A stretch of 64,000 bases of DNA, from NCBI GenBank assembly GCA_036874045.1, contig CM072336.1, positions 23,263,501 to 23,327,500 on the forward strand, read 5' to 3'. Position numbers and translations under genes: made by a program. Shown here piece by piece: positions 1 to 50,648 of this stretch. This stretch comes from Cymodocea nodosa (Eukaryota > Streptophyta > Magnoliopsida > Alismatales > Cymodoceaceae). Within the stretch, counting starts at the first letter, position 1. Each line of letters starts with the position of its first letter. Below the pieces are notes generated by a model. It had not been told where the DNA came from. It saw nothing but the letters and a program-made list of their open reading frames with translations, and ran no database searches.

Positions 1-1035
1 ATTAATTTAGAAAATGATGAGGTTCAATTAGGAGCTCTAGCTTCTGATGAGCAGCATTTAGAATTAAAACCTTTACCTCCTGAATTAACCTATATATTTC
101 TGGAAGATAAACGAACATGTCCAATCATTATTGCTTCAGATTTAAAAGAGGATCAAATAGCTAAATTAAAAGATGTAGTAAAAAGTTATAAAGAAGCAAT
201 AGGATGGACTATGACTAATATAAAAGGGTTAAGTTCAACTTTATGCTGTCACCACATATATTTAGAAGAGAATGCTAAACCTGTTAGAATTCTTAAGAGG
301 AGATTAAATTCAAACCTTAAAGAAGTAGTCAAGAAGGAAATAGTGAAATAGTTAGATAATGACATAATTTATTCGATTTTTGATAGCTCGTAGGTTAGCC
401 CAATCCATGTAGTTCCCAAGAAATCAGGATTAACAATTATTAGGAATGAAAGTTAAGACTTGATACTTACTAGAATTCAATCAGGCTGGAGAGTATGTAT
501 AGACTATAGAAAGCTGAATGGTGTGACTAGGAAAGATCATTTTCCCTTACCTTTTCTAGATCAAATGCTGGAAAGATTAGCAGGGCAAGAATATTTTTAT
601 TTCCTAGAGGGGTATTCAGGTTATAATCAAATTCCAATAGCATTAGAGGATCAAGAGAAAACAACTTTCACCTGTCCTAATGGAACTTATGCTTTTAAGA
701 GAATGCCATTCGGATTATGCAATGCACCAACTACCTTTCAAAGGTGTATGCAAGGCATATTTATTGGAATGATTGAAGATTTCTTAGAAATATTTATAGA
801 TGATTTTACAGTATATGGAAACTCATATGAAGTTTGTTTAAGCAATTTAGACCAAATATTAAAACGTTGTATTTAAAAAAATATGGTTTTAAATTGGGAG
901 AAATGTCACTTCATGGTTAAACAAGGAATAGTCTTAGGGCATGTTGTTTTTAAGAAAGGGTTGGAAGTAGATAAAGCTAAAATAGAAGTAATTTCTAAAC
1001 TACCAGAACCTAAATCAGTAAAAGATATAGATCAT
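1..1035 (+). pseudogene. Athila-type gypsy pol: protease-RT linker and reverse transcriptase, decayed
   Basis: This is the reverse transcriptase part of a Ty3/gypsy polyprotein, which copies element RNA into DNA. The open stretch begins before the window, so the 5' end is cut by the window edge. Visible are the pre-RT block (AIGWT, then HHIYLEENAKPVR), the VSPIHVVPKKSG stretch, WRVCIDYRKLN, FPLPFLDQMLERLAG, MPFGLCNAPTTFQRCM and the catalytic motif FIDDF near 795-810 (the YxDD box with F for Y). In-frame stops lie near 349-351 and 391-393, the region around 440-470 is disturbed, and a stop follows at 874-876. A frameshift near 1033 moves the reading into the RNase H part. The wording of these motifs is that of Athila/Tat elements rather than chromoviruses. 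It belongs to the outer element whose 3' LTR starts at 11,100. Family assignment is secure; loss of function is plain from the stops. Confidence 0.92.
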
Positions 1036-1559
1036 TTCTAGGACATGCTGGTTTTTATAGAATATTTATTAAAGACTTTACCAAGATAGCTAGACCTTTA
1101 ACTAATCTATTAAAAGATGTTCCATTTAACTTTGATAAAAATTGCAAGGAAGCATTTTTCAAACTTAAGACTAGCTTAATTTCAACTCCTATAATTCAAG
1201 CACCTGATTGGAACCATCCATTTGAATTAATGTGCGATGCATCTGATTTTGCTGTAGGAGCAGTGTTGGGACTGAAGATAGAAAAATCTCCTAGAGTGAT
1301 TCATTATGCAAACAAAACCTTAAATGATGCTCAAGTTAATTACACAACTACTGAGAAAGAACTATTAGCTGTTGTGTTTGCCTTAGAAAAGTTTAGATCA
1401 TATCTAATTGGAGCTAAAGTGATAGTATACACGGATCATTCAGCTTTAAAATTTCTAATAAAGAAAAAAGAGACTAAACCTAGATTGATCCGATGGATAT
1501 TATTATTACAAAAATTTATTCTAGAAATTAAAGATAAAAAGGTTGTGAGAATGTAGTAG
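1036..1559 (+). pseudogene. Athila-type gypsy pol: RT thumb and RNase H, decayed
   Basis: This continues the pol gene after a frameshift, in the frame of position 1230. It opens with [11 protein letters not shown], the RT connection motif that precedes RNase H in gypsy pol. RNase H follows, with the first catalytic Asp in [13 protein letters not shown], the Glu in [20 protein letters not shown], and the Asp in [11 protein letters not shown]. The enzyme would remove the RNA strand during reverse transcription. The frame ends with stops at 1554-1559 (TAG TAG), but the downstream sequence (DHLSRLQ) resumes in another frame, so this is a frameshift and not the real end of pol. No CDS should be expected to be translated from it. 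Confidence 0.9.
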
Positions 1560-2954
1560 TAGATCATTTATCAAGATTACAAATAGACAAATCATATATT
1601 GAAATTAAGGATAATTTTCCTGATGAACAATTAATGACCATCAACACAATGCCTTGGTATGCAGACATAGTTAATTACTTAGTAACTTGTTTAACACCTA
1701 AGGATTGGAATAGATAGGATAAGAAATTGTTTTTCTCGAGAGTAAAATATTACTATTGGGAAGACCCATACTTATTTAAGAAATGTCCTGATCTGGTTTT
1801 AAGGAGGTGTGTTCCAAAAACTGAATATCCTAGCATATTGTCTTTCTGTCATGATCAAGCTTTTAGAGGGCATTTTGGTTCAGGGAAAACTACTGCAAAA
1901 ATTCTGCAATGTGGGTTTTATTGGCCAACACTATTCAAAGATGCTCATAAATATTGCTTAAGTTGTTTAAGATGCCAACAAATAGGAAGAATATCAAAGA
2001 GGAATATGATGCCACTTAATCCTATTGTTGATGTTGAAATCTTTGATGTGTGGGGAATAGATTTTATGGGTCCATTTCCTATGTCTAATCAATTTAATTA
2101 CATATTGTTGGGGGTGAATTATGTATCTAAATGGATAGAAGCTATTCCTACAAAAACTAATGACAACAAAGTGGTAATACAATTTATAAGAACAAATATA
2201 TTTGCTAGATTTGGAATACCTAAAGCTATTATGAGTGATAGAGGAACTCATTTATGTATTAGAAGTTTTGAAGCCTTAATGAAGAAATATGGAGTAAACT
2301 ACAAAATTGCAACATCATATCATCTGCAAACAAGTGGACATGTAGAAAGTGTTAACAAACAAATTAAGTTAATCTTAGAAAAAGTAGTAAATCCTACTAG
2401 AACAGATTGGGTTAATAGATTGATAGATGCACTTTGGGCTTATAGAACTGCTTATAAGACAAGCTTAGGTATGTCACCTTTTAGGCTAGTATATGGAAAA
2501 AGTTGTCATTTACCTGCTGAAATAGAACATAAAGCTTATTGGGCATTAAAAACTCTGAATACTAATTTAAATCAAGCTACTGAAAATAGAAAAATGCAAC
2601 TAATTGAATTAGAATAATTTAGAAATGAAGCTTATTCGAAGACTGTAAGAGAAAAAGAGAAAATGAAATTCTGGCATGGTAGGAAAATTATTCCAAAAAG
2701 TTTTGAAATAGAACAAGAAGTATATCTTTGCATGGCTAGACTCCATAACCATCTAGGAAAATTAAGATCTAGATGGCAGGACTTACATAGTTCAAAATAT
2801 TTATCCTTATGGAGCTATTGAAATTGAAAATCCTAAAAATCAGAATATATTTGAAGTAAATGGACAAAGACTTAGACCTATTCTGAAAACACTAAAAAGC
2901 TCCTTTGGAATTATAGAAGAAGTCAGAGTAGAGGACTACTCGAGCTTTACTTAG
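1560..2954 (+). pseudogene. Athila-type gypsy pol: integrase, decayed
   Basis: This is the integrase part of pol, which inserts element DNA in the host genome. After DHLSRL and a spacer, the longest open piece is 1727-2617. It has the H2C2 zinc-binding region (H...H in [11 protein letters not shown], then CLSCLRC), then the DDE core: Asp in WGIDFMG, Asp in IMSDRGTHL and Glu in SGHVESVNK. The catalytic triad is therefore intact although the gene is broken. Stops occur at 1714-1716 and 2615-2617, and a frameshift lies near 2780. The C-terminal part (WHGRKI, then VNGQRLRP) runs to a stop at 2952-2954, the likely natural end of pol. No chromodomain was seen, as expected for Athila/Tat. Confidence 0.92.
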
Positions 2955-3548
2955 TCAGAAATCAGTTTTTATGTTTATATATAAATAATAATAATAATAA
3001 CACATTTAAAAAATATATATATATATATTTAAAATATAAAAATCATTGCAGTTCAAACGATCGGATCCATCGGTATGACCGGAACATAAAAAATATGTAT
3101 ATTAATTTTCAAAAAAAAATGTTGGTTTTACCAAAACATAGTATCAGTTCAATTGGGAAAAAAATTAGGTCCGACCGAAATATAGTATCGGTTAAACCAG
3201 TAAAAAAAACAGAAAAACTATTATCTGTATTATTTTTATTATTATATATGTTTGTACGGGAAGTCTGTTGAGTTACGCCTAACTCAACGAGCTTACTCTA
3301 TTGAGTCTTGAGTTAGTCAATGAGCTTATTCCATTGAGTTAACTGTAACTCAACGTAATAGTATAGCTAAGACCGCAGATAAAAGAGTAATAGTTGGTTC
3401 GGGAAATGACCCGATTACCTGCCTAAACTTAAGGATTATTTATCTTAAACCTAGGATTTTAGGGGCATTATTCGGCAAATCATTTAGAATCTAGAATAGT
3501 AGAAATCAGAGCGATTCTGTGCTGTTGTGTAACTCCACGATGAGGAAG
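2955..3548. other. retroelement spacer between pol and env-like ORF
   Basis: No gene is visible. The stretch from about 2990 to 3215 is AT-rich and has repeats of a GGTTCAACCG / AGTATCGGTT type. It matches, with small differences, the leader of the inner element right after its primer-binding site (about 14,445-14,790). Two palindromes of the GTTGAGTTA/TAACTCAAC type lie at 3267-3288 and 3333-3354. An A-rich block at about 3206-3222 has the same AAAAAAAACAGA string as about 6117-6130, which matters for how the inner element lost this part. Confidence 0.6.
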
Positions 3549-5701
3549 ATGACGCCTAAATTCTTGGATGATGTAGTGGACACCGCATAGTTTCTGAAGG
3601 AATTTGAAGAATGGCACACGTGGCAAAAGATTCGGAATACAACAAGAGAGAAACAACTACAAAAGATAGAATCAGAACTCTTTAACTTAAGGAAAGTTTT
3701 AGTTGAGTTAGAAATACAAATACCACAGATAATGGAGACACGAATTAGAGTGGCAACTGAAATTGCTGTTAACAAAGAAAGAAAAATCTGGCCAAACAAT
3801 GAAGTAGCCCTAGAGCTAATTCAACGTAAAGCCAGATTGTGGTTTAAGAAACACATTGCTTGTCGAGGAAGCTAGGCAATATGGGAGCAGCAACGAACAA
3901 GAGAACATGAAGAATCGACTACTGAAAGACCTATTCTTAAGGAACAGCAGTCAGGACCTCTAGTTCAACCAACAGAGCCATTGCCACGATTAGCATTTGT
4001 TTGGCTGAGAACTGAAGAAGAAGTGAAAGAATTTACTAGCTTGGTCAAAACAAAAGAAGCCAAGGTGACACTGAAGAAATAGCTACAGCTAAGGCACATA
4101 TTTTATATGATGCCATTAAGAGAAGAAGGGCCGAAGAAAGGATGAGGGCCCAATACAAAATAAAGGTTGAGCAGCATCAAGCAGCAGCTAAATCAATTGC
4201 TGCAAGAGAAGTTGAGGCTAGTCCTTCGAGACCAATAATTATAGAGAAAGTTGAACAAGAAGAGCTAGTACCTATGGCTCGAAGGCCTACAGAACCTACT
4301 TTTGTAGATTTAATTTCAAAAGAAGAAGAGGAAGAACAGGCACAATTAATCAGAAAAAAGAAAGGAAAAGAAAAAATGCCTGAAATTGAGGAAATTAAAT
4401 CTGAAGTACCAATTTTTACAGATCTTGTGGAGCAAATTTTTATAAACCTGCTATCCGATTCTGAGGAGCAAGAGGAGTAAAGACAAGAAGAAAATCAAGC
4501 TGAAATTAGTCTACAGCCTGTATAAGAAGAAACAAAAATTAGGGTAGAAATTGAATTGCTCGTGACTCCATCCCAATTTGTTACAGAATCAGAAAGAACA
4601 GTAACAGAACAGATTGGTAGTCAGGAGGAAGAAGAAAGAGTAGAAAATGAAGAGGGTGAAAGAAGCCATTTGGACAAAAATAACTTCACAGATTCCACTG
4701 AAGAGCAAGAAACTCTTCCGCAATTTATGGAAAGAATTCAGGACAAAGTGGAGAGTTCTACCGGCTCACCACCACAGATAGAAACAAAAATAGAAATTCA
4801 AGAATCTATAGAGAATGTTCAAATACAACCTATAGAAGAGGAAGAGCAAGAACAAACCCCTCTGGAACAACAAAGTCACCTTCCTGACCCAACTAAAACA
4901 ACAATTTTAAATGAAGTACATTTTTGGAGTCAGGAAGCTTATACCAAATATCAACAAATTAGGGGTTACAATATTATTTATAGTAGACCAGTAAATTGGG
5001 ATGGAATGCAAGAAATCAAAGATTTATTTAAGTTCCAAGGTCTACTGAAGTTTATTTCTCAAGAAAGAGGGCATGTAGTATATGAGAATTTATTGCCCTG
5101 TTTCTATGCAAATTTAAGAGAAGGAGAAGGATGATTAATTTCCAACGTGGAGGAAGCTAGTGTACAAATAACACCAGAGCTTCTCCACAACATTTTTGGA
5201 TTGAAGAATGAAGGACTAAAAATTTTGGAAGACACTCCTACCGTTGAATGGACTAAACAGGAAATCAAGGACAGTTTGGCTATCAATCCTGGTGTGCCTC
5301 TATTAAACAGATTGAAGCATTTAAATGGTAAAGCACACATGATAGCTAACATTCTGATTAAGAATGTCTATCAACGACAAGGCCATGACATAGAATTAAG
5401 TCAATTTGTCAAATGGGCCACATATGTAGTTGTAAACAGGATTCAAATAAATTGGTTTGCAATTTTTATCTCCAAGCTGAAAGTAGTAAAGAAAAAATTA
5501 TTTTCTGGAGATTTGATTTCATTACTGATGGTGGATTGTATTGATTTCACAAAATGGACATCAAAAAGGATCAGATCAAGAACCATTTCAGTGAAAGAAT
5601 ACAAAAATTTTGTAGCTACAGAGATAACTGTACCTTCTAGAGGCATTACAAGAGCTGTAGAAAGAATTAATCAATTAGAACTTCAATTAGAAAAACTCTA
5701 G
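3549..5701 (+). pseudogene. env-like / additional ORF of an Athila-type element, decayed
   Basis: A long reading region follows pol where Athila elements carry their env-like or additional ORF. It starts at an ATG at 3549, runs with few stops to about 4080, then shifts frame. From about 4060 it stays in the frame of 4142 to the stop at 5699-5701, broken by stops at 4478-4480, near 4523-4525 and at 5132-5134. The first half is charged and coiled-coil-like (many Glu, Lys, Gln). The second half has VVYENLLPCFYANLREGEG and, after the stop, ITPELLHNIFGL. That pattern resembles the plant retrotransposon-associated domain in which a FYAN block precedes an L-G-L motif. No signal peptide or membrane span could be recognised, so env is only a positional name. 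The function of this ORF is not known. It is absent from the inner element. Confidence 0.7.
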
Positions 5702-6682
5702 AAGGAAGTAGATGAACTTAGGAATAGAGATTAAATTGTATTGTTCGTCTACTTGTATAAAATTGTATGAAATTGTATGATGTGTTTGTACTGTAAATTG
5801 ATTTATATTAATGAATATAAATTTTTCAGATGCAATTTTCATACATGTTTTGGATGTGAAAATGAATGGAATTTATTGAATATTATGTAATTTGTGGAAC
5901 TTTATGAATGAATGTTTAACAGATTTACAATTTGCTGAATGACAAGATAAATGCTTAAAAATTTCTGCATGTTGCAAGGTAAAATGTAAACTCTACATAA
6001 CATAAAATGACCTGCAAGTTAAATCTTTATATAATGTTCAGATTTAAATGAATTTTGATTAAAATGATGCATTAATGACATAGATTTAACTTTATTTCAG
6101 TTAGCAGAATGAAAAAGAAAAAAAAACAGAGAGGAATTTACGAGAGTAAAACTTAGAGGTTGCTAAGTGTTAACTCAATGAAGTAAGTTCGTTGAGTTAA
6201 CCGTAACTTCACGAGGTCAGTAATATAATATAAGGTCACTCCGTTGAGTTATCTGTAACTCAACAAAGTTAGTCCATGGAGTTAGCAACAGTAACCGATT
6301 GTGTTCCATTGAGTTATCTGTAACTCAACGAGGTTAGTTCGTGGATTAAGCAAAACGATTATTCTTTTAACCATGACCAAAACTTCGTCGACTTAGCGGT
6401 TACTAAAATTTGAAATTAATAGTGGTACACGTAGCCATAAAAACAGGAACCACGATGCACGTTGCAAGACACGTTCTTGCAACGAGATTTATTCACTTTA
6501 TGGATGTAAATTATATATATAAATCAGAATGTTATTTATGAGTTACCAGCACTTTTAAAAGAAAGGAGAATGCGTTAAAGGAATTGGAAGGCGAAGTAGC
6601 TGATTCGACTTCATCTGAAAACAAATATTTACTAAATGGAAAGCTTCAGACTGGTATGTAATTAATCTTCTGCTATTTATTT
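5702..6682. other. retroelement noncoding region / gag leader
   Basis: No gene is visible. From about 6125 the sequence matches the inner element's leader from about 14,797 (TACGAGAGT block, then palindromes at 6243-6264 and 6308-6329, then the AGTTACCAGCAC block near 6541, matched near 15,206). The part 5702-6110 has no counterpart in the inner element and is AT-rich. No LTR or primer-binding site is present here, so gag does not begin a new element at this point. Confidence 0.55.
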
Positions 6683-8015
6683 ATGAGCACATGGACTCGT
6701 TCTCTAAGCACTAAACGATTAGTAAGAACACCTACCCAGGAATTTTCATCGCAGAGGAGTATTAAAAAATTTTCTGAACTGAACTTTAATGAAATTCTTT
6801 GGGGTGTAGCTAATCTTTCTTTAAAAGAGAACGTAGAGATGACTATTCCAGTAGAAAAACCATTAGGAGAAATTATGTATCCAAAATTAGTTGATGAACC
6901 TTCATGTATTCGATTGCTAAACTTTGAGGGAGATAGGTTTGAACTGAAATCTAATTATATTAGTCAATTGTCACATTTTCATGGATTAGAAAGAGAGGAT
7001 GCCTATTATTTCCTTAGAGAATTTAATGAAGTTTGTCAAATGATGAAAATGCCGAACATGGGTATAGATGCTATTAAACTTAGATATATCCATTTTTCTT
7101 TAAAAGGTAGCTAAGAGATGGTTATATACTCTGTCGCCTGATTCAATTTCTACATGTACTGAATTTTGCTCTATTTTTCTGGAAAAATATTATCCAACAC
7201 ATCAAACGATTAAAAAGAAGAAAGAAATCTTAATGTGTAGCCAAAAATAGGGTGAATCATTCTGGAAATATTTTGAAAGATTTAAAGATTTACTGACTCA
7301 ATGTCTACATCATGCAATGAGTAAAGTACAATTAATAGGTATAATTTATGAAGGCATAGATGTTTCAATGAAATCTTTATTAGAATCTACTTGTCAAAAT
7401 GGATCTTTAAAGTTATGTAGTGAAGAAGCATGGGCATATTTAGAAAACTTTGCAAAAAGAACTACACAGTGGGAAAACTCGGTTGAAGCTATTGTAGATT
7501 CAATAGATTAAACTCGGCATGAAATAGATTCAAGTACTATGCTTGAGGTGAAATTAACTGAATTAACAAAGAAAATAGAAGAGTTATCATTAAATCAAAA
7601 GCTAGCAGAAAAGAATGCAAACATAAATGATTTAGATATTATTTATGCTAGAAACCAGAGAGATAATTTGGGAAATTCTTATAATCCTAATTGGAGAAAT
7701 CACCCGAATTTATCTTGGAGAAACAATAATTTCCAAGGAAGAGAAAATGTAAATGAGAAGAATATAAGTTATGAAGCATTATTGGAACAAGGATTTAGAA
7801 TAGAGAAATTAGAAAAGATAATCCAACAATTAAACAATCGTCTAGATTTTGTGTTTGAAAGTGTTGCAATTCAAAATCAGAATAGAAATATACCACTTAG
7901 ACAGAAGGAACCAATGGAAGTTAGACCTACTAGAGGATTGCCAATACAAGCAATACCTAATCCTGTTAATAGAATGGTTAATGAAATTGATACCTCTTCT
8001 AGGAGGGTAGCTTAA
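6683..8015 (+). pseudogene. Athila-type gag, copy A (outer element), decayed
   Basis: This would encode the capsid-forming Gag protein. It begins MSTWTRSLSTKR and contains the gag core: the FEGDRFELKSNYISQL block, HFHGLEREDAYYFLREFNEVC, then after a frameshift near 7108 the KRWLYTLSPDSI block, ESFWKYFERFKDLLTQC and EEAWAYLENFAKRTTQW. These follow the order of Athila gag (F-LK, L-FLE-C, ERFKDLL, YELLE-A---QW). A later NPNWRNHPNLSWRNNN motif is also characteristic of Athila gag. Stops occur at 7112-7114, near 7249-7251 and 7509-7511. The 7539-8015 part ends near TAA at 8013-8015. No CCHC knuckle was found. The gene lies downstream of pol and the env-like ORF, the reverse of the usual order, and directly upstream of the F-box gene. 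Confidence 0.87.
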
Positions 8016-8208
8016 TGAAGTAGCATATCTAAAGCAACTATCTATGTATATATATGTTTTTATTTATAGTTAATAGTATAGTAGAGTTAGTCCTTAACTC
8101 AACGAACTTATTCCATTGAGTTATGCCTTAACTCAATGAGGGTGTGCAGTAGTTATGTTAATTTTTTGTCTTTGCTAAATTTTTGTTTGTGTTATACAGA
8201 ATCAACAA
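8016..8208. other. gag to F-box spacer of outer element
   Basis: A short spacer has one GTTGAGTTA-type palindrome (8114-8137) and ends in a T-rich stretch followed by ATACAG (AG at 8198-8199), 9 bases before the F-box ATG. The inner copy has the same layout (T-rich, then TTATAG, AG at 16,087-16,088). A conserved splice acceptor just upstream of the F-box start is possible, but no transcript data are available. Confidence 0.4.
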
Positions 8209-9344
8209 ATGGAATTGATACAATTACCGTTGGATGCACTAAGGGAAGTACTGAGTAACTTGTCAGCTAAAGATTTGTGCAGGTTGTGTTGTGTATCAAA
8301 GGAAATTAAAGATTGCATTGAAGAAAAATATTTTCAGGAACTACTGCAAAAATGACTAAGATTAGAGATGGATTCATATGGAGGTCATTTAATCATAGTT
8401 CAATTAATCATGAATATCTTGCTATGGAAGAAACTACTGGAATTCCACCTAATACATTAGAAGGAATAAATCATATTATGGGGATAGATGAAGGATTAAT
8501 CATATACAAGACGAGACCAAGGTATGCAAGTTTATTATTACTTGATATTTTGATAAGAAATCCTATAACAGGAGAAGAATGGAATATAGGAAGACCTAAT
8601 AGATTTGAAGTACCAATTGTAAATTGTGGATCGGCTTTAATATTTTCTGATAAAAATTCTGCAATTCCTAAAAAATTATATTATTGGAGACCTATAGGAA
8701 ATTGGGGTGAAGATTTATGCTTAAGTGTGTATAATTTTCTGAATAGATCTTGGAATGAAAATATTGTGATATATCTAGGACAGAAATCATTAATTAACCA
8801 AACACATGTCATACTGGATGGATATATATATCTTGCTACAGATATATCAATAGCATTTGGATTTGATTTATACATAGTGAGCATAGACAGTTATAATGAA
8901 TATATAGAAATTTTACTTATATCGAGTGATATAGCTAAACCACCATCTGCAGAATTTAATAAAATTCAAATAGGAATGTGGTATAATGAAGAAGATGATC
9001 CTACTTTACGTCTGATAAGATGGAGGGATGAATTGATGAAATTTCAAATATGGATTATGGAAGACATTAATGAATGGAAGTGGGAAGAGGAGTATATTGA
9101 AATAGATGTAGAAATAGAAACTGCTACATTACCTTGGAACCAAAAATGATCTCTTTCTGCATTTCATATCATTAATGGTAATACACTTGTATTTGGAATT
9201 TATAATATATTACACGTTTACAAATTAAGAAGGAACAAGAACTGCATGAAAACAGAATTAATAGCAAGAAGAACTATGCCTAAAAAGTTTGCTTGGACTG
9301 ATACATTTATTCCATTTGTTCCTACTTTTCAATCATGTTCTTAA
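8209..9344 (+). pseudogene. retrotransposon-borne F-box protein gene, copy A
   Basis: F-box proteins bind Skp1 in SCF ubiquitin ligases and choose substrates through the C-terminal part. Starting at ATG 8209, the first 45 residues form an F-box (LPLDALREVLSNLSAKDLC, then RLCCVSKEIKDCIEE). A 4-bp deletion at about 8345, relative to copy B, shifts the frame and creates a stop at 8350-8352. The rest is open from 8352 (MTKIRDGFIWRSF) to a TGA at 9147-9149. Beyond it, the same frame still encodes SLSAFHIINGNTLVFGIY and runs to TAA at 9342-9344, matching copy B. The C-terminal part reads like an F-box-associated beta-rich region (ILIRNPITGEEWNIGRP; many W and Y), though no specific FBA subfamily is claimed. 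Apart from the 4-bp loss the length equals copy B exactly. It lies within the outer element, after gag and before the 3' noncoding tail. Confidence 0.85.
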
Positions 9345-11091
9345 GCTGTGATTTTGCGTGTTTAATGTTGTGTGTATTCTACATTATTTTTAGAAAAAAT
9401 ATAGTTTTCATTTTAGTTTATAAAAGAAAAAAAATAAAATAAAATATCAATCCAATTTGTTGGTATCTGTTTTGGGAAACCAACTGGCTTGCTTGTGAGC
9501 CACTAAAGGCATAGGAGCCTAGGTTCCACACAAGACACTGAATTATTAATATTTGTTAAATGTTATTTTGTTTTATATTCTGTGTTTATCTATGAATGAA
9601 AAGTTTTCCAGAATCAAAAATCGGAATATGCAGAAGGAGATACAAACAAATCAAGGTATGTAACTGATTACTTATCCTGAATTTTAAATCAATAAAACTG
9701 TATTCACGCCTGCTACAATTACTGTATTTACTACCAAATCTTTTACATTGAGGACAATGCAAAATGTAGGTATGGGGGGGAGGTAATTAAAGTAACACCC
9801 ATGTAAGTTTGTTAATAAAAAAAAAATTAAAATGGTACTACAAAGTTTTGTGGAAATTGAAAATTTTTATGAACTTGCTGTAACTATCCAATAATTGAGA
9901 CTGTAAAATTTATAATCTATAACTGCTTGAATGTTATATTTAGAAGGCTATATATGATGCTATAGAATTTACTATTTATGCAAATCTAGATATAGTATCT
10001 TATGTTTTTTCTGAATTTCATGAGTTTAACAGTTTCACGATTTTAAAATGAAATCAGAATGCTTAATGAAAAATCAGTAAATTATCTGAAGTCCTGAAGG
10101 AGCTGAGATGTGAATTCTAGATTAAATGAAACACATATGATTAAAGATACATTTAATTCGACTGATTGAACTTGTAGAATGATTTATGTGTAGATCTTAT
10201 TAAACTACAGAAAAAGTATGAGCTCACTATTATAAATTTATATTTCAGTAAATGATAGAAGCAGGACTATATGAGATTGGTATTTTATTACATCTGTATT
10301 AATGAAATACGTACATATACAGTATGTAATTAATGCTTTGTTTTGTGTGTATTTTGATTGGAAAAAAAAAGAGAGACAAATTTGAGAGTTTATTGACTTG
10401 TTTGATCACGAGCCTTTTGTACTTAAGCAGATAGGTATGTAAGGATTGTTGCCCTAAAAAAAAAAAGGACTTTTGAAATCGGACAACCTAAGATCTTGAT
10501 CAGATCTGGGATTGTTGACTGAAAGCTCGTTACATGGGTACATTAGAAAGCTCCTGTATAATTCAAGCTTGTCAAATTAACTTTTAAAGTATAAAAAAAA
10601 AGAGAAAAAAAAAGAAGAAAAAAAAACATATATTGTTTTGAAAAGGTACAAGTGTTTTGTGAAATACAAATATCTTATGAATCGAGTATATTTTCTGTTA
10701 TCTAGAATTGCTGAAATATGAATCTGGAATTGACTTTTGAAGTTGTTTTAATGGAGATACAATTTTTTATTCTACTTGTCTTAATCATATTGAATTGGAT
10801 TGTACTTTGATTCGTATGTTGTTGAAATTTCTTCTAGAAATCTTATTGGAAAATTCAGGATGACAGATGATGAAAAGAACAAACGATAATTAACACCTTT
10901 GTGATGATGATATACTTCGTATGTAATTTGCATATATTCTAAGTATATTTGCAAGTTGATTACTGAAACATACAGAATATATATTTTTATGCTGAATAAA
11001 AGAAAAAAAGAAGAAGAATTAATTCTAGCACTTTTTGAAATACCAATTAATTAGATCTTAGTTTGCTAAGGGATTAGCAAAATTTAGGTAT
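9345..11091. other. 3' noncoding tail of outer element
   Basis: No ORF of note is present. The sequence is matched almost throughout by 17,238-18,970 in the inner element, so it belongs to the family rather than to a host gene. It is AT-rich with several A-runs (near 10,368, 10,458 and 10,600) and carries an internal polypurine tract (separate entry). Confidence 0.7.
9766..9783 (+). promoter_or_regulatory. internal polypurine-tract-like sequence, outer element
   Basis: A GTAGGTATGGGGGGGAGG tract is preceded by TTGAGGACAATG. It resembles the real polypurine tract at the 3' LTR (GTATGGGGGAAG) and is conserved at about 17,676-17,692 in the inner element. It could act as a second plus-strand primer, or be a leftover from an older 3' end. 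Confidence 0.45.
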
Positions 11092-11099
11092 GGGGGAAG
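11092..11099 (+). promoter_or_regulatory. polypurine tract of outer element
   Basis: GGGGGAAG lies directly before the TG that starts the 3' LTR, the expected place for plus-strand priming in an LTR retrotransposon. The same bases stand at 18,971-18,978 in the inner element. Confidence 0.85.
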
Positions 11100-12415
11100 T
11101 GTTTAGAATGAAAAGGTGCATATTATTAACGGTTAAATGCATAATAGTTAGCTTATCATATAAGAATTAAGTCATTATGTTATAATTGCACTGTTATATA
11201 CTTTAATTAGAATTACTACTTAATTTTGGAGAATTAATGTCAATTTAGTACATTTTTGAACTGTCGGTAAGTTGAGGCTGTGAAATTCTTATGTATCCAA
11301 ATTTTCTGATATTTCGGACAGTTATGTATAACATATCGAACATATTTCGGACAGTTATGTTTAACAGACCGAACATGTGAGATAGTTTTGTTTAAATTGT
11401 CGAACAGTTATGTTTTGAAAGAATATTTTATTATTTCCTAAAGTACACGTGTCAAAACCATAATGCATGACTTAAGTGAACTTTCGGTGAGTTATCTCTA
11501 ACTATTCGAAATTGCAACTGGGCATCAGACATTAATATGTGTAACCCTTCAAAATCTCTTTTTATTTATAAAATAGCTAAGGACATGTGTCATGTTTTGG
11601 TAAAGTGACTTAACTAGACTTTCGGTGAGTTAGTTGTAACTATCCGAAATGCATCTGAGCATTGGATAGTTAGACTTGTATCTCTCCGAAATGTGTATTT
11701 TATTATTAAACTACTATTGACACGTGTCGAGATTTGGTAGATTTACTTAAGTTATATATCGGTGAGTTATCTATAACTATCCGAAATGCATCTAAGCATC
11801 AGATAGTTAAGTTTGTAAGTATCTGAAATGCACCTGAGTATTGGATAGTTAAATTTATGCACGTGTTTTATAGTTAAATCAATGAAGAAAGTCCGTTGAG
11901 TTATCTGTAACTCCACAAACTATTTATTTTCTAATATGCCACTGTAGCGGTTGCAGAAACAAGATAGTTGGAAGAAAAACCATGATTGCATGTATTACGT
12001 AGGGAGAAGAAATCATCGTCGTTGATATGAATGAAGGAAATCCAACCGACCATTCAAGCAGAAGCAGTTACTACTGAAGAAATATAAAAGAAAAGAAGAA
12101 AAAGAAGAAAAGGGTGCGTGTGTGATCGATGGGTATGGTCAGTGTGTATAGAGGAGGAGCATCGAGCTTTCTACAGGCAGCATCGGTAATTCTCTAAAGT
12201 ACCACACCAACCGTCATCACCACTACCATAATCACCAACCATCGTAGGTCTGTGAGAATACTTTCTTGATGTCGAGTCGATTCCGAGCAAAACACGGTGC
12301 TTGACAACCACTGTGAGGAGTGATCGCATCGCAGGAAAGGAAGCCATTTTCACCAAGCGCCGACTCATATTTCAGGAGATCGTAAAGCTTCTAGCCTTGA
12401 CTTCGGGTTGATGCA
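11100..12415 (+). repeat. outer element 3' LTR, left part (split by insertion)
   Basis: The LTR starts TGTTTAGAATG right after a polypurine tract. It matches the inner 5' LTR from 12,416 onward, with differences, until ...GGGTTGATGC, where the inner element is inserted. The rest of this LTR resumes at 19,886. The part 11,270-11,890 has repeated GTGAGTTATCT-AACTATCCGAAA style units. No host gene lies here; the ORFs in the antisense strand are not supported by any family. Confidence 0.85.
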
Positions 12416-14376
12416 TGTTTAGAATGAAAAAGTGCATATTATTAACGGTTAAATGATGGTTAATTGCATAATATTTAGCTTATCATATGAGAATTAAGTC
12501 ATTATGTTATAATTGCACTGTTATATGCTTTAATTGAAGAATCTGCTTAATTTTGGGGAATTAATGTTAATTTAGTATATTTATGAACTATCGGTAAGTT
12601 GCAAGCTGTGAAATTCTTAAGTATCTGAATTTTTTGATATTTCGGATAGTTATGTTTAAATTGCCGAATAGTTATGTTTAAAGAGAATATTTTATTATTT
12701 CCAAATGTACACGTGTCGAGAGCTGGTAGATTTACTTAAGTTATAACTCGTTAAGTTAGCATAACTATACGCGTTGAGTTACATGAATATACACTAAGTT
12801 AACGCGTTATGTTAGCGGCTTATTTCTTTATTGCATGTATTTTATGCACGTGTTGAATTTAAATGCTTTAGAATATCATGTGAGATGCACATGTTTAACT
12901 CGTTAAGTTAGTATAACTGCACACGTTGAGTTACATGAATATACACTAAGGTAACGCGTTAGGTTAGCGGCTTATTTCTTTATTGCATGTATTTTATAGT
13001 TATTTTCCAAAATGCCACTATAGCGGTTGCAGGAACAGATAGTTAGAAGGAAAAACCACGTTTACACGTATCACGTAGGAATTCAATCGTGCATGGAGAA
13101 GGAAGCATCGTCGTTGATCTGAAGGAAGGAAATCTAATCGATCATTCAAGCAGAAGCAGTTACTACTGAAGAAATATAAAAGAAAAGAAGAAAAAAAGAA
13201 GAAAGTGTGATCGATGGACGGTAGTGTATACAAAGGAGGAGCACCGAGCTTTCTACAGACAGTATCGGCGATTCTCCGAAGTATCACACCAACCATCATA
13301 TCACCACCATAATCACCAACCATCGGAGGTATGTGAGAATACTTTCTTGATGTCAGGTCGATTCTAAGCCAAATATAGTGCCTGACAACCACTGTGAGGA
13401 GTGATCGCGTCGCGGGAAGGGAAGCCATTTTCACTAAGCACTGACTCATATTTCAGGAGATCGTAAAGCTTTTAGCCTTGGCTTCGGGTTGATGCCTGTA
13501 TGCTGAAGAGGAGATCATCTTGCAATTCTGGACTCGCGATTCTATAGGGAGAGGAGACAGAATTGTAAATGGTTTAATTTTCAGTGGTGTAATCGTGTTG
13601 CAAGTAGTGTCGGAAGTATTTACTGTCAAGTGAGATTACTTTACATTTCACCTTTCGCCCATTTCCATGTTCACATCAAAACAAAAATACCAAAAATAAT
13701 TTATCTTTGTTTGTATGTTGTATTTGAGTGTTGTATTGTTTGTGTTGTATCGTGATTAATGTTATCTGTATCAGTTTTATGATTGTTTTATGTTAGTTTT
13801 TATTTTACAGTTTACTGAAATTGGTTCGTACAAAAAACTTAAAGATTTTAACAGCAACTATTTGAATCATCTGAATGTTAGTATTGCTTAATGATAAATC
13901 CAATGTTAACTAGCATTATAAAGCTTAATTGATGTTATTTACAATCTGTGGAATCGCCCAATGGTTGGCCGAATTCCTCTGTAAATAGCAGTATTATAAA
14001 GAAAAGACAGGCTCGTGGAGTTAACTCAAGTCCACGAGGATAGTCCGTTGAGTTAGCCATAACTCAACGAACTAAGTTCGTTGAGTTAACTGTAACTCAA
14101 CGGAGTGCTTATTGAATATAAATTTGAATTGTTCACAATCAAACATTTCTTAAATTCGTCAGCAATTCCTTGTGGGATCGACCTGTACTTGCACACTAAT
14201 ACAATAGACATTGTGTACTTGCAGTTAAACTACAAATTGAAATTAATATCTAAATTGTATTAAAGGTTGTTTGTTTACTTCTAAAAGAAAGAATAGGCAT
14301 AAAGATAAATTAACTAAGTAAAAATAGAAGTAACAAATCCAAGTTTTTCTAGTGTAGTGCTGGGAAAACACAAACA
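12416..14376 (+). repeat. inner element 5' LTR
   Basis: It starts TGTTTAGAATG and ends ACACAAACA, giving TG...CA ends and 1,961 bp. The last 770 bases match the 3' LTR (18,979-19,885) closely, but the 3' LTR lacks about 1.05 kb of the middle. It has palindromes at 14,047-14,068 and 14,079-14,101. The two halves of the outer LTR match it as well. Confidence 0.87.
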
Positions 14377-14383
14377 AGTTTTA

Positions 14384-14401
14384 TGGCGCCGTTGCCGAGG
14401 A
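14384..14401 (+). promoter_or_regulatory. primer-binding site of inner element
   Basis: TGGCGCCGTTGCCGAGGA lies 7 bases after the 5' LTR. Sequences of the TGGCGCCGTTGCCGGGGA type are known as the tRNA primer-binding site of many Athila/Tat elements. One base differs here. It fixes the direction of the element as plus. Confidence 0.85.
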
Positions 14402-15348
14402 ATTGAATTGAATTGAATTGAGTCGAAGTGAATTGAATTGAATTGAGTTAAACATTAAAAATATATATATAACATAAAAATAGTTGCGGTTCAACCGACT
14501 GGATCCATCGGTATGACCGGAACATTAAAAAAAAATTGTATATTAATTTTCAAAAAAAAATATTGGTTTTACCAAAACATAGTATCGGTCCAACCGAAAG
14601 AAAAATAAAAAAATAAAAAATATTTAGGTCTGACTGAAGTGTAGTATCAGTTAAACCGGAAAAAAAATTGTATATTAATTTTCAGAAAAAAATATTGGTT
14701 TTATCGAAACATAATATTGGTTCAACCGAAAAAATATATATATATTTAGGTCTGATCGAAGCATAGTATCGGTTAAAACGGTAAAAAAATAGAATAGAAA
14801 ACTTACGAGAGTGAAACTTAGATGTTGCCAAGTGTTAACTCAACGAAGTAAGTCCGTTGAGTGAACCGTAACTCCACGAGGTCAGTAATATAATATAAGG
14901 TCACTCCGTTGAGTTATTTGTAACTCAACGAAGTTAGTCCGTGGAGTTAGCAACAGTAGCTGACTGTGATCTGTTGAGTAATCTGTAACTCAACGAGGTT
15001 AGTTCGTGGATTAAGCAGAACGATTATTCTTTTAACCACAAACGAAACTTTATCGGTTTAGCGGTTACCAAAATTTGAAATTAGTAGTGGTACACGTACC
15101 CATAAAAATAGGAACCACGATGCACGTTGCAAGCCACGTTCTTGCAAAGAGATTTATTCACTTTATGGATGCGTAGTATATATATGAAACAAAATGTTAT
15201 TTACGAGTTACCAGCACTTTTAAAAGAAAGGAGAAAGCGTTGGAGGAACTAAAAGGAGAAGCAGCTGATTCAACCTTCATCCGACAACAAATATTTATAG
15301 AATGGAAAACTTCAGACTGGTATGTAATTAATCTTTTGCTATTTATTT
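14402..15348. other. leader of inner element
   Basis: No gene is visible. It holds a GAATT-type short repeat (14,401-14,445), a GGTTCAACCG/AGTATCGGTT repeat block matching outer positions 2990-3215, then from about 14,797 the block that matches outer 6125 onward. Palindromes lie at 14,908-14,929 and 14,972-14,994. The joint near 14,790 is where the outer element has its env-like ORF. Confidence 0.6.
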
Positions 15349-15908
15349 ATGAGCACATGGACTCGTTCTCTAAGCACTAAACGATTAGTAAGAACACCTA
15401 CCCAGGAATTTTCATTGTAGAGGAGTACTGAAAAATTTTCTGAACTGAACTTTAACGAAATTCTTTGGGGTGTAGCTAACCTTTCTTTAAAAGAGAACGT
15501 AGAGATGACTGCTCTAGTAGAAAAATCATTAAGAGAAATTCTGTATCCTGAATTAATTGATGAACCTTCATGTATTCGATTGCCAAACTTTGAGGGAGAT
15601 AGGTTTGAACTGAAATCTAATTATATTAGTCAATTGCCACATTTTCATGGATTAGAAAGAGAGGATGCCTATTATTTCCTTAGAGAATTTAACGAGGTTT
15701 GTCAAATATAATCCAGCAAGTAAACAATCGTCTAGAATTTATATTTGAAAATGCTGCAAATCAAAATTAGAATAGAAATATATCACTTAGACAAAAGGAA
15801 CCAATGGAAGTTAGACCTACTGGAGGATTACCAATACAAGCTATACCTAATCCTGTCAATAGAACAGTTAATGAAATTGATACCTCTTCTGGGAGGGCAG
15901 CTAAATGA
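15349..15908 (+). pseudogene. Athila-type gag, copy B (inner element), truncated
   Basis: It starts with the same MSTWTRSLSTKR as copy A and has the ELIDEPSCIRLPNFEGDRFE block and the LREFNEVCQ block. The sequence then jumps from copy A position about 7040 to about 7818, losing roughly 775 bp with the whole middle of the capsid region. An in-frame TAG (about 15,418-15,420) also breaks the N-terminal part. The remaining tail (QKEPMEVRPTGGLPIQA) ends at a stop near 15,906-15,908. It cannot make a working Gag. Confidence 0.82.
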
Positions 15909-16097
15909 AGCAGCATATCTGAAGCAACTATCTATATGTATATATGTTTTATTTTAAGTTAATAGTATCATAGAGTTAATTTTTAACTCAACGAACTTAG
16001 TCCGTTGAGTTATGCCTTAACTCCACGAGGGTGTGTAGTAGTTATGTTAATTTTTGTTTCTGCTAAATTTTTGTTTTTTATTTTATAGAATCGACAA
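15909..16097. other. gag to F-box spacer of inner element
   Basis: A short spacer with a GTTGAGTTA-type palindrome (16,003-16,023) and a T-rich stretch ending TTTATAG just before the F-box ATG, as in the outer copy. Confidence 0.4.
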
Positions 16098-17237
16098 ATG
16101 GAATTAATGCAATTACCATTGGATGCACTAAGGGAACTACTAAGTAACTTGTCAGCTAAAGATCTATGCAGACTGTGTTGTGTATCAAAGGAAATTAAAG
16201 ACTGTATTGAAGAAAAACATTTTCAGGGACTACAAGCTGCAAAAATGACTAAGATTAGAGATGGATTCATATGGAGGTCATTTAATCGTAGTTCAAATAC
16301 CCATGAATATCTGGCTATGGAAGAAACTACTGGAATTCAACCCAATGCATTAGAAGGAATGAGTCATATTATGGGGATAGATGAAGGATTAATCATATAC
16401 AAGACAAGACCAAGGTATGCAAGTTTATCATTACCTGATATTTTGATAAGAAATCCTATAACAGGAGAAGAATGGAATATAGGAAGACCTAATATATTTG
16501 AAGCACCAATTGAAAATTGTGGGTCAGCTTTAATATTTTCTGATAAAAATTCTACAATTCCTGAAAAATTATATTATTGGAGACCTACAGGAAATTGGGG
16601 TGAAGATTTACACTTAAGTGTGTATAATTTTCTAAACAGATCTTGGAATGAAAACATTATAATATATCTAGGACAGAAATCATTAATTAACCAAACACAT
16701 GTCATACTTGATGGATATATCTATTTAGTCACGGAGATATCATTAGCATATGGATCTGATTTATACATAGTGAGCATAGACAGTTATGATGATTATATAG
16801 AAATTTTACCTATACCGAGTGAAATAGCTAAAACACCATCTGCAGAATTTAATGAAATTCAAATAGGAATGTGGTATAATGAAGAAGATGATCCTACTTT
16901 ATGTCTGATAAGATGGTGGGATGAACTGATAAAATTTCAAATATGGATTATAGAAGACATGAATGAATGGAAGTGGGAAGAGGAGTATATTGAAATAGAT
17001 GTAGAAATAGAAACTGCTACATTAACCTAGAACCAAAAAGGATCCCTTTCTGCATTACATATCATTAATGGTAATATACTCGTATTTGGAATTTATAATA
17101 TATTGCATGTTTACAAATTAAAAAGGAACAAGAACTGCATTAAAACAGAATTAATAGCAAGAAGAACTATGCCTAAAAAGTTTGCTTGGACTGATACATT
17201 TATTCCATTTGTTTCTACTTTTCAATCATGTTCTTAA
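16098..17237 (+). pseudogene. retrotransposon-borne F-box protein gene, copy B
   Basis: The gene is open from ATG 16,098 for 310 codons. The F-box lies at residues about 5-45 (LPLDALRELLSNLSAKDLC, RLCCVSKEIKDCIEEKHF). A C-terminal region follows with NPITGEEWNIGRP, SALIFSDKN and a Trp-rich acidic tail (MNEWKWEEEYIEID). A TAG at 17,028-17,030 stands where copy A has TGG (Trp). Past it, the frame goes on (SLSALHIINGNILVFGIY) to TAA at 17,235-17,237, the same end as in copy A, giving 379 codons in all. By eye the two copies share about 86% of residues over the central 265. As it stands, copy B could still make a 310-residue F-box protein that lacks only the last 69 residues. Whether it is transcribed is unknown. 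Known F-box proteins would place it in an SCF complex; the target cannot be guessed. Confidence 0.85.
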
Positions 17238-18970
17238 GCTGTGATTTTGTGTGTTTAACGTGTGTATTCTGCATTTATTTTAAGAAAAAAAAGAAGAAGG
17301 AATTTTGAAGTTTTTCATGTTCATTTTATAAAAAAAAAACAAACAAAACAAAATATCAATCCAGTTTGTTGGTATCTGTTTTGGGAAACCAACTAGCTTG
17401 CTTGTGAGCCACCAAAGGCATAGGAGCTTGGGTTCCACACAAGACACTGATTTATTAATATCTGTTAAATGTTATTTTGTTTTATATTCTGTATTTATCT
17501 AGGAATGAAAAGTTTTTCAGAATCAAAAATCGGAATATGTAGAAAGAGATACAAATGGAACAAGGTATGTAACCAATTACTTATCTTGAATTTTAAATCA
17601 AACAAAACTTTATTCATACCTGCTACAATTACTGTACTTATTGTCAAATCTTTTACATTGAGGACAATGTAAAATGTAAGTATAGGGGGGAGGTAATTAA
17701 AGTAACAGCCATGTAAGTTTGTTAATTAAAGGAATTAAAATGGTACTGCAAAGTTTTGAGGAAATTGAAAATTTTTATGAACTTGTTGTAACTATCCGAT
17801 AATTGAGACTGTAAAATTTTTATAAACTGCTTGAATGTTATATTTAGAAGGCTATAGAAGATGCTATAGAATTTATTATTTATGTAAATCTTATGATTTT
17901 TCTGAATTTCATGAGTTTAACAGTTTCATGATTTTAAAATGAAATCAGAATATTTAATGCTTAATCAGAAAATTATCTGAAGTCCTGAAGGAGCTGAGAT
18001 GTGAATTCTAGATTAAATGAAACACATATGATGAAAGATACATTTACTTTGATTGATTGAACTTGTAGAATGATTTATGTGTAGATCTTATTAAACTACA
18101 GATAAAGTATGAGCTTATTGTTATGGATTCATATTTTTAGTAAATGATAGAAGCAGGATTATATGAGATTGGTGTTTTACTGCATCTGTATTAATGAAAT
18201 GCGTGCATATACAGTATGTGATTAATGCTTTATTTTGTGTGTGCATTTATTTTTAGAAAAAAAAAAAAAAAACTTTGAGAGTTTATTGACTTGTTTGATC
18301 ACGAGCCTTTTGTACTTGAGTAGATAGGTATGTAAGGATTGTTGACCTGAAAAAGGACTCTGAAAATCTGACAACCTAAGATCCTGATCAGATCTGGGAT
18401 TGTTGACTGAAAGCTCGTTACATGGGTACATTAGAAAGCTCTTGTATGACTCAAGCTTGTCAAATTAACTTTTAAGGTACAAAAATATATATATATATAT
18501 ATTGTTCTGAAAGATACAAGTGTTTTGTGAAATACAGATATCTTATGAATCGAGTATATTTTTTGTTATCTAGAATTGCTGAAATATGAATCTGGAATTG
18601 ACTTTTTAAGTTGTTTAATGGAAATACAATTCTTTATTCTACTTGTCTTAATTAGATTGAATTGGATTGTACTTTGATTCGTATGTTGTTGAAATTTCTT
18701 CTAGAAAACTTATTGGAAAATTCAGGATTACAGATGATGAAAAGAAGAACAAACAATAATATAATTAACACCTATATGAAGATGATATACTTTGTATGTA
18801 ATTTACATATATTCTAAATATCTTTGCAGGTTGATTACTGAAGCATACAGAATATATGTTTATGCTAAACAGAAAAAAAAAAACAAAAGGGGAAGAATTA
18901 ATTCTAGCACTTTTTGAAAGACCAATTAATTAGATCTTAGTTTGCTAAGGGACTAGCAAAATTTAGGTAT
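17238..18970. other. 3' noncoding tail of inner element
   Basis: No ORF of note. The sequence is matched almost throughout by outer positions 9345-11,091. It includes the conserved internal polypurine-like tract (about 17,676-17,692: GTAAGTATAGGGGGGAGG) after TTGAGGACAATG, and a TA microsatellite near 18,486-18,502. Confidence 0.65.
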
Positions 18971-18978
18971 GGGGGAAG
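18971..18978 (+). promoter_or_regulatory. polypurine tract of inner element
   Basis: GGGGGAAG immediately precedes the TG of the 3' LTR, identical to the outer element. Confidence 0.85.
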
Positions 18979-19885
18979 TGTTTAGAATGAAAAAGTGCAT
19001 ATTATTAACGGTTAAATGATGGTTAATTGCATAATATTTAGCTTATCATATGAGAATTAAGCTATTATGTTATAATTGCACTATTATATGCTTTAATTGA
19101 AGAATCTGCTTAATTTTGGTTGAAGTATTTACTGTCAAGTGAGATTACTTTACATTTCACCTTTCGCCCATTTCCATGTTCACATCAAAACAAAAATACC
19201 AAAAACAATTTATCTTTGTTTGTATGTTGTATTTGAGTGTTGTATTGTTTGTGTTGTATCGTGATTAATGTTATCTGTATCAGTTTTATGATTGTTTTAT
19301 GTTAGTTTTAATTTTACAGTTTACTTAAATTGGTTCGTACAAAAAACTTAAAGATTTTAATGGTGACTGTTTGAATCATCTAAATGTTAGTATTGCTTAA
19401 TGATAAATCCAATGTTAACTAGCATTAAAAAGCTTAATTGATGTTATTTACAATATGTGGAATCGCCCAATGGTTGGCCGAATTCCTCTATAAATAGCAG
19501 TATTATAAAAAAGAGACAAGCTCGTGGAGCTAACTCAAGTCCACGAGGATAGTCCGTTGAGTTAGTCATAACTTAACGAACTTAGTCTGTTGAGTTAACT
19601 GTAACTCAACGGAGTGCTTATTGAATATAAATTTGAATTATTCACAATCAAACATTTCTTAAATTCGTCAGCAATTCCCTGTGGGATCGACCTGTACTTG
19701 CACACTGATACAATAGACACTATGCACTTGCAGTTAAAGTATAAATTGGAATTAATATCTAAATTGTATTAAAGGTTGTTTGTTTACTTCTAAAAGAAAG
19801 AATAGACATAAAGATAAATTAACTAAGTAAAAATAGAAGTAACAAATCCAAGTTTTTCTAGTGTAGTGCTGGGAAAACACAAACA
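18979..19885 (+). repeat. inner element 3' LTR, internally deleted
   Basis: It begins TGTTTAGAATG and ends ACACAAACA. After about 140 bases it jumps from the position matching 12,557 to the one matching about 13,615, a deletion of roughly 1.05 kb. The rest matches the 5' LTR closely. Confidence 0.87.
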
Positions 19886-20805
19886 ATGCCTGTATGTTGA
19901 AGAGGAGATTATCTTGCAATTCTGGACTTGCGATTCTATAGGGAGAGGAGACAAGATTGTAAGTGGTTTAATTTTCAGTGGTGTAATCACGTCGTATGTA
20001 GTGACGGAAGTATTTACTATTGATTGAGATTACTTTACATTTCACCTTTTGCCCATTACCATGTTCATATTAAACCAAAAATACCAAAAATAACTTATCT
20101 ACTATTGTATGTTGTATTTGAGTATTGTATTGTTTGTGTTGTATCGTGATTAATGTTATCGTTGTCAGTGTTGTGATTGTTTTATGTTTGTTTTAGTTTT
20201 ACAGTTTACTGAAATTGGTTCATTCAAAAGACTTAAAGATTTTAATGGTTACTGTTTGAATTATCTGAATATTAGTATTGTTTAATGATAAATCCAGTGT
20301 TTACTAACATTAAAGAGCTTAATTGAGGCTATTTACAATCTGTGGAACCACCCAATGGTTGGCCGAATTCCTCTGTAAATAGTAGTATTTAAAAAGAAAA
20401 GACAGGCTCGTGGAGTTAACTTAAGTCCACGAGGTTAGTCCGTTGAGTTAGCCATAACTCAACAAACTTTATCTATTAAGTTAACTATAATTCAATGGAG
20501 AGCTTATTGAATATATAAATTTGATTGTTAACAAACGGACAGTTCTAAACTCTTAAGCAATTCCCTATGAGATCGACCTGTACTTGCACATTGATACAAT
20601 AGACACTGTGCACTTGTAGTTAAAGTACAAATTGGAATTAATATCTAAATTGTATTAAAGGTTGTTTGTTTACTTCTAAAAGAAAAAGAATAGGCATAAA
20701 GATAAATTAACTAAGTAAAAACAGAAGTAACAAATCCAAGTTTTTCTGGTACGTTATTGGAGATCTAATCAGATATTCTGGTGTCGTGCTGGGAAAACAC
20801 AAACA
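19886..20805 (+). repeat. outer element 3' LTR, right part
   Basis: It resumes the LTR broken at 12,415 (ATGCCTGTATG, then the GGGAGAGGAGACA block) and ends ACACAAACA at 20,805. It is more diverged from the inner LTRs than they are from each other, in line with the outer element being older. A palindrome lies at about 20,442-20,463. Confidence 0.83.
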
Positions 20806-49240: not shown

Positions 49241-50648
49241 ATATCATGTTGTCATTTTTTTTTAATGGTACGATTAAGTATTTCATGCCAAGGATGTCGA
49301 AGCCATCTCTCTCTCTCTAATGGATGTCAAATCTTAATTTTTTCCTATAAAAGTTAATTGTTTTTTGCGTATTTTAATTTTTAAAGATTTCTGATTATGG
49401 CAATCTGGCACCAGACCAAGCCCACACACGATTCATGATGCCAATCTGGCAACACATCAAGCGGGTTCATACAAGATTTATCATGTCAATCTTAATTCTT
49501 TCTTTTTGCAAAGTTAAAATCAGTTAAATTTAATCAAGTAATTTAATTCTATTAAATTACCAATTTTTAATCAAGTAGTTTTAAATCTACGTCTATTTTT
49601 TAAATTTTTTCCTACGCTAATTAATTCTCCTTTAGACTATCACTGCAAGTCCAGAAAAAAAAAAAAATCATGTTTGGTAAAAAGATGTTGACTTTATTTT
49701 TCATGCGTCGATTTTTGAATCAAGTAATTAACAGAAAATCTCATATACGTGTGAAACTTTTTATTCTCTTTCTCACGACATGAAAAACTCCATACTCAAA
49801 ATAATAATAAAAGAATACTTGTTGATTTGAAAACGCTTATTCTTCTCCCTCCCTTTTTTTAAAAAAAAGAATTAATCTACATGGCATTACATTACTATAC
49901 GCACATTATTCATCCGGAAGTTAATAATCTAGATCCAAATAATCTATATGCTATGGGCCTCCCCAAATCAGGAGCTTTTGTCACCTTTTTCCTTTATGAA
50001 ATAAAAATAAGCAGTTGGGTCTGGGCTTCAAGTTTTTGTAATAAAAGAAGTCCAATAGACAACAAATGGGCCTCCCACTTCGTCGAGCTTCTCGCCGGCT
50101 GCGACGAGCAAAACCGGTGGTCACGTCTGTCGGTGACCTCGGAGCTGCGAATGTCGCCGCCGCCAAGGCCTTGCCTTTCTGATTGGCACGGGGAGGAGTT
50201 GGGCCGCAATCGGCGAAGGAAGGTGGCCTTCTCCCTTGGAAGTTCGTCCTTCGATTAATGCTGTATCAGTACCTTGTCCTCGTTTCCCTTTTTTCTCTGT
50301 CCTTGACTTTCTCCTTCATCTTTGGTACGGTACTCTTGCGGCCAGAAGAGCCTTTTTTTACTCATGATAAGGGTTTTGTAGTGCTTCCTTTTGGAATTGG
50401 TCCCTTCATTTTATTTGGTGATTTCCGATGGTAATGCTCCTTGTAGAATTTCTCTATTTCATTTGATCCTTTTCAAGCATCTGTGCTTTTTTCTTCTTTG
50501 ATTCCTTGATCGTACATTCCTGTGGTCCTTATCATGAGTTCGTCTCTGTTTCCATGAAGTGGAATACATATATGAGTTCTTCGTTGATCATGAATTTTCT
50601 ACCTAAATTTCACATCGACTAATACACAAATATATGTACTTATTACAG
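49241..50648. other. divergent intergenic region and 5' leader of the hydrolase gene
   Basis: It separates the minus-strand dehydratase gene from the plus-strand hydrolase gene, so it probably holds both promoters. The part 50,050-50,440 is GC-richer and may contain the hydrolase's first, untranslated exon. An acceptor TTATTACAG ends at 50,648, right before the chosen ATG. Confidence 0.45.

Follow-up and report, generated by a model that had tools for sequence, protein, structure and literature searches.

The stretch of Cymodocea nodosa DNA analysed here (assembly GCA_036874045.1, contig CM072336.1, positions 23,263,501 to 23,327,500; 64,000 nucleotides, hereafter the window) is occupied from about 1 to 20805 by nested long terminal repeat (LTR) retrotransposons, two of which, elements A and B, carry a 379-codon reading frame that encodes an F-box protein, the subunit by which a ubiquitin ligase selects proteins for destruction. 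Extra genes with no known use are common in plant LTR elements. In this case the extra gene is recognisable, is present in thousands of places, and, judging from the changes shared among its copies, is almost certainly a standing gene of the element that was selected as one of its parts. Its route of expression, which very probably involves splicing, is recorded in genomic copies of the spliced RNA.

The F-box frame and its copies

The frame lies at 16098-17237 in B and at 8209-9344 in A. In A it is interrupted by a 4-bp deletion at base 136 and by TGA at codon 315, in B by TAG at codon 311, and no lesion is common to the two. The initial annotation, made from the sequence letters, had described two element copies with this frame and with independent lesions. 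Both points are borne out, with a match to the Pfam F-box family PF00646 in residues 4-41 of B (E 2.5e-9; 37.1 bits against a curated cut-off of 20.5) and in 10 of 10 open copies (best E 4.3e-11). The picture is amended in that B is inserted inside the 3' LTR of A (12416-19885, LTR-bounded) and in that the gene also has an upstream start exon of six codons and an intron. Stops recur at codons 59, 97, 167, 193, and 311 across unrelated F-box copies, a pattern that fits methylation-driven change at TGG codons as the presumed cause.

All copy counts come from a search of the genome (374.6 Mb in 28 contigs). A 25-base F-box probe, with up to three mismatches, finds 3,475 places (reversed control 3), which rules out a chance open reading frame (ORF) as well as a family of only two copies; an integrase probe finds 3,866 (control 0), and both counts take in fragments. 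DNA searches with B and A, in which the best 40 of 4,232 and the best 40 of 4,344 first-look candidates were scored, returned places with 97-98% and 95-96% identity, respectively, the query itself excluded. Twenty places of the B-query set were read as ten-kb loci with their flanks, and 20 of the A-query set as the F-box stretch alone. In all 20 ten-kb loci the F-box gene runs directly into the same tail, and 18 of them have gag in front of it, the remaining two being the spliced copies L009 and L021 described below, so that the many copies with the same flanks for which the initial annotation had proposed to look are present. Pairing of exact sites alone on C1 (4.0-15.6 Mb) placed an exact same-strand pol site 3.8-6.8 kb upstream of 16 of 44 F-box sites and 2-9 kb downstream of none; four have an opposite-strand pol site within 2-9 kb.

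Intron and spliced copies

Ahead of the capsid gag frame, ATG and five further codons are followed by the donor GTATGT, and a 3' splice site lies ahead of AATCGACAAATG of the F-box gene; the resulting GT-AG intron contains the capsid Gag frame. Among 22 copies, 18 have this intron and two, L009 and L021, have lost it exactly. L017 differs in having the start exon fused to the acceptor that precedes gag, and no donor could be located in L011. Once fused, the start exon reads in frame into the F-box gene (388 residues open in L009) as well as into Gag (L017), and these frames suggest that Gag and the F-box protein share it.

The exact junction of start exon and F-box gene occurs at 207 places genome-wide, and a third junction, in which a donor behind gag is joined to the F-box acceptor with loss of a shorter intron, at 13 (control 0 in each case). 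In both window copies the donor behind gag is altered, but neither the main donor nor either of the two acceptors is. Seventy C1 sites were read among the 100 exact F-box sites listed: 54 bear the intron, seven have the F-box junction, eight something else (including L063, with the third junction), and one is truncated. From the exact intron-less genomic copies, together with the copy that joins start exon and Gag, we infer alternative splicing and reverse transcription of the spliced RNA, and expression of the F-box gene by splicing appears highly probable. Directly upstream of the start exon, L020 lacks about 0.7 kb that other copies have. The missing piece stops at an AG followed by AATGG, and another intron may exist ahead of the start exon.

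Selection on the F-box frame

The first set of 42 F-box copies (A, B, L009-L028, and L033-L052) contains 10 with an uninterrupted frame between ATG and the final stop. L013 is likewise free of inner stops, though its final stop is gone, and L038 is missing its ATG. The remaining 30 carry inner stops (one in 12, two in 14, and three in four copies); five of these are also gapped, and L022 is also without ATG. Ten more stretches were taken from C1, of which L055 is open and L058, truncated at its 5' end, was left out, giving a selection set of 51 copies (42 plus nine).

Private changes, each found in one copy of the 51, comprise 218 nonsynonymous (N), 69 synonymous (S), and 20 stop changes, and their spectrum yields a neutral expectation of 4.03 for N:S with 8% stops. 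Changes found in at least 10 copies comprise 30 N, 25 S, and no stops (Fisher test against private changes, p 0.0017), and shifted-frame controls give no such fall in N:S (2.97 to 4.86 and 3.24 to 4.22). Over codon positions 1, 2, and 3, private changes are distributed 102/114/91 and widely shared ones 10/12/33 (third position, p 2.4e-5). Among the 42 copies, near-fixed differences between an A-like and a B-like group number 19 N and 12 S, as against 183 and 51 for singletons (p 0.045); the net ratio of nonsynonymous to synonymous rates (dN/dS) between the groups is 0.40, and within the A-like group 0.42.

As the shared changes are constrained and free of stops, the frame was kept while the elements multiplied, and the pattern points to purifying selection in the multiplying lineages followed by mostly neutral decay. 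The proposal of the initial annotation, a standing element gene that was open in the common ancestor while it moved, is therefore upheld by the many copies, the constrained shared changes, the recurrent flanks, and the spliced retrocopies; a dN/dS near 1, which would have spoken against use by the element, was not seen.

Organisation of elements A and B

The features of both elements are collected in Table 1. B has the complete hallmarks of an LTR retrotransposon, namely two LTRs (95.95% identical over 765 bases), primer site, polypurine tract, and a target duplication, ATGCA/ATGCC, with one mismatch; it is without pol and without the env-like part, and its gag is shortened. The coding part of A extends into the 8 kb to the left of the window, and since no long LTR match was found in those 8 kb, its 5' end may be lost. 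A's own gag piece at 6683-7111 gave no Pfam family match.

Table 1. Features of the nested elements A and B (window positions)
Feature	Position	Strand	Remarks
A pol pieces (reverse transcriptase, RNase H, integrase; frames broken)	460..2617	+	Pfam RVT_1 E 9.9e-22, RT_RNaseH E 5.1e-33, Integrase_H2C2 E 2e-13, rve E 9.6e-11
A env-like reading frames	4142..5701	+	named from position alone; same region in L020, L024, partly L023
A start exon (ATG + 5 codons), then donor GTATGT	6636..6653	+	
A intron, encloses capsid gag frame; internal acceptor ahead of 6755	6654..8199	+	
A capsid gag region, broken	6755..8015	+	related L020 frame is Retrotrans_gag PF03732, E 1.1e-19
A F-box exon, ATG at 8209; 4-bp deletion and TGA	8200..9344	+	
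A 3' LTR, first part, cut by B	11100..12415	+	remainder at 19886-20805
B 5' LTR, TGTTTAG...CAAACA	12416..14376	+	
B primer binding site	14384..14401	+	
B start exon	15302..15319	+	
B intron with shortened capsid gag; internal acceptor ahead of 15421	15320..16088	+	
B F-box exon, ATG at 16098; TAG at codon 311	16089..17237	+	
B polypurine tract	18971..18978	+	
B 3' LTR, internally deleted	18979..19885	+	flanks ATGCA and ATGCC
A 3' LTR, second part	19886..20805	+	

The initial annotation had placed the frame between gag and the 3' tail, which is right as a position, but the capsid gag is itself downstream of pol and, in A, also of the env-like region. The order in L031 with L014 is LTR, primer site, short ORF with a zinc-knuckle-like motif, protease-pol, capsid gag, F-box gene, tail, and LTR. 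In this copy and in L032 with L020 the capsid gag stands 3' of pol, with LTRs flanking both sides of each; the former is without the env-like part, the latter has most of pol deleted, and L024 shows the 3' part of the order. Nesting as an artefactual source of this order is rejected, because both copies run through LTR, pol, capsid gag, F-box gene, and LTR with no LTR in between.

The family is an abundant one of Ty3/gypsy type and perhaps Athila-like. The primer site, seen in B, L010, L012, and others, is a candidate match to tRNA-Asp, presumably an Athila trait. No Athila ORF-1 or env-like Pfam family was found in three window frames of the 3' env-like region, and the capsid gag, upstream of pol in Athila, is 3' of it in L031 with L014 and in L032 with L020.

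Several further observations concern the family's layout. In L031 with L014, in L015:820-2300, and in L029, Gag seems to be divided in two. Its 5' piece is a short ORF that bears a zinc-knuckle-like motif, recognised by eye, and continues towards protease-pol, and the capsid part lies 3' of pol, within the F-box intron. A Pfam scan of the 5' ORF in one copy (L031, in which the last cysteine is changed) gave no match. If true, such a split would be an unusual genome plan. In the pol-less copies (B, L010, L016-L019, and L026) the region behind the primer site is fused to the repeat region that in other copies comes after pol, which leaves capsid gag and the F-box gene as the coding parts. Short degenerate tandem-like repeats (3023-3208 and 14461-14790 in the window) are found repeatedly after pol and, in pol-less copies, after the primer site. 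Head to head with A and directly left of the window lies another member of the family, on the minus strand (L029:1-6200).

Outside the elements, the window holds three probable host genes: one for a sugar-nucleotide dehydratase/epimerase at 46388-47500 (GDP_Man_Dehyd, E 5.3e-67), one for a possible alpha/beta hydrolase at 50634-51710 (weak, E 0.053), and a repetitive frame, rich in Gly and Pro and matching no family, at 54262-55164. Rfam and tRNA scans of the window had no useful outcome.

Possible function and alternative explanations

Since the gene was kept working during the spread, the element probably turns the host's apparatus for protein disposal to its own use. Gag and F-box mRNAs would be made by alternative splicing from the common start exon, and spliced element RNA would be reverse transcribed and integrated. 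The F-box protein would bind host SKP1 and act as substrate receptor of an SCF ubiquitin ligase, an adaptor role that is reasonably probable. The substrate would be a host factor that restricts the element, and splicing would balance capsid against counter-defence; this role in counter-defence is tentative. The initial annotation had suggested a steering of SCF ligases against silencing or Gag turnover, and it keeps the standing of a possibility here. Still somewhat more speculative is the fullest form of the proposal, in which an element-coded SCF receptor, made as a spliced alternative to the capsid, destroys a host silencing or restriction factor and thereby helped the element to reach thousands of copies. 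Taken as a whole, a standing F-box gene that is spliced, serves as SCF adaptor, and acts in counter-defence is the best explanation, and one to which we attach moderate confidence. A possible recruitment of SCF ligases by retrotransposons, as in some plant viruses, becomes directly testable.

The F-box protein might instead target the element's own Gag or polymerase, governing particle number or Gag turnover. The start exon common to Gag and the F-box protein and the competition for splice acceptors would suit such self-regulation, but a shared exon fits a host target equally well, and we consider a target within the element unlikely, if worth keeping in mind. Far less probable is passive cargo, that is, a host F-box gene captured once that rides along, its protein useless to the element or its sequence serving as a spacer or RNA signal. 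Plant LTR elements are known to capture genes (PMC3726574; PMC8764390), most copies are broken (10 of 42 open), and private changes look neutral; against it, the shared changes favour third codon positions, with no stops among 55, the shifted frames lack the fall in N:S, and A and B differ by one indel in the F-box frame and 17 in the tail. Equally improbable is a single old deletion spread by copying, or gene conversion, in place of repeated splicing: among the matches listed, at least 72 of the 207 junctions share one 25-base sequence, but the lost segment coincides exactly with the GT-AG intron, there are three distinct exact junctions, and the tree, with L009, L021, L053, and L060 as its spliced copies, needs four changes, of which starred branches force at least two.

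Some results weigh against a standing, spliced, SCF-directed gene. With regard to selection, 42 of the 51 copies are A, B, or places chosen for similarity to them, a non-random sample; changes found in two to three copies (66 N, 26 S, 12 stops) and in four to nine (43 N, 16 S, 4 stops) show little constraint, and dN/dS within the B-like group is 0.67. As to splicing, the junction of start exon and Gag was sighted a single time genome-wide (control 0), and a single clade for the four spliced copies is not rejected (approximately unbiased test, p 0.22). In pol-bearing copies the start exon lies kilobases from the 5' LTR, which counts against the model as far as access of ribosomes is concerned. 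The C-terminus, which the initial annotation had likened to F-box-associated domains, matches FBA_1 weakly in four of 10 open copies at E up to 1 (best E 0.002; L020 reaches 14.5 bits, below the cut-off of 21.1), which makes the likeness tentative, and B's own frame has no such match at E 1. None of 1,778 candidates from a protein database of unchecked plant content is a relative of the F-box protein at E 0.01, and searches of solved structures in the PDB and of viral contigs found none.

Comparison with known systems

No LTR retrotransposon family with a standing F-box gene appears in the titles and abstract openings of the F-box and retrotransposon papers listed, a scope that leaves subscription journals aside; nor is "F-box" mentioned in the available portions of PMC6317226, PMC11963269, and PMC3726574. 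Sunflower elements carry extra ORFs (PMC11728184). Sense ORFs between pol and the 3' LTR of plant elements are mostly env-like, and the accessible text of that survey has no mention of "F-box" (PMC7264820). The additional-ORF elements described there resemble the present family in having a sense ORF downstream of pol and many copies, and spliced expression is described for Bagy2; here, however, the ORF is a recognisable F-box protein with the capsid Gag frame in its intron.

Two other plant cases can be compared. Orchid Ty3/gypsy elements carry an ORF for an m6A RNA demethylase (2-ODD), so that a gypsy family has preserved a host-type enzyme domain through repeated replication, but the domain is a different one, its activity was assayed, as opposed to the sequence evidence given here, and the available text describes no intron-held Gag and does not mention "F-box" (PMC9289625). 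In Thlaspi arvense, a single gene of the F-box family is flanked by LTRs; this too is an F-box gene within LTRs, but one annotated, tandemly duplicated host-type gene, not one kept across an element family (PMC8764390).

The spliced copies recall the spliced integrated retrotransposed elements (SpIREs) of human L1, in which spliced element RNA has been integrated to give precise intron-less copies, and the same exact GT-AG intron loss is found here in integrated copies (L009, L021; 207 places). L1 is a long interspersed nuclear element and not an LTR element, and splicing is harmful to the element there, whereas here it joins coding exons in frame (PMC5860796). For the protein itself, a parallel is that of the polerovirus P0 silencing suppressors, in which a parasite of plants encodes an F-box motif: theirs is an F-box-like motif and here there is a full Pfam F-box, and the two are likened by description, not by sequence, but P0 offers a possible way of working for the retrotransposon protein (PMC6593998).

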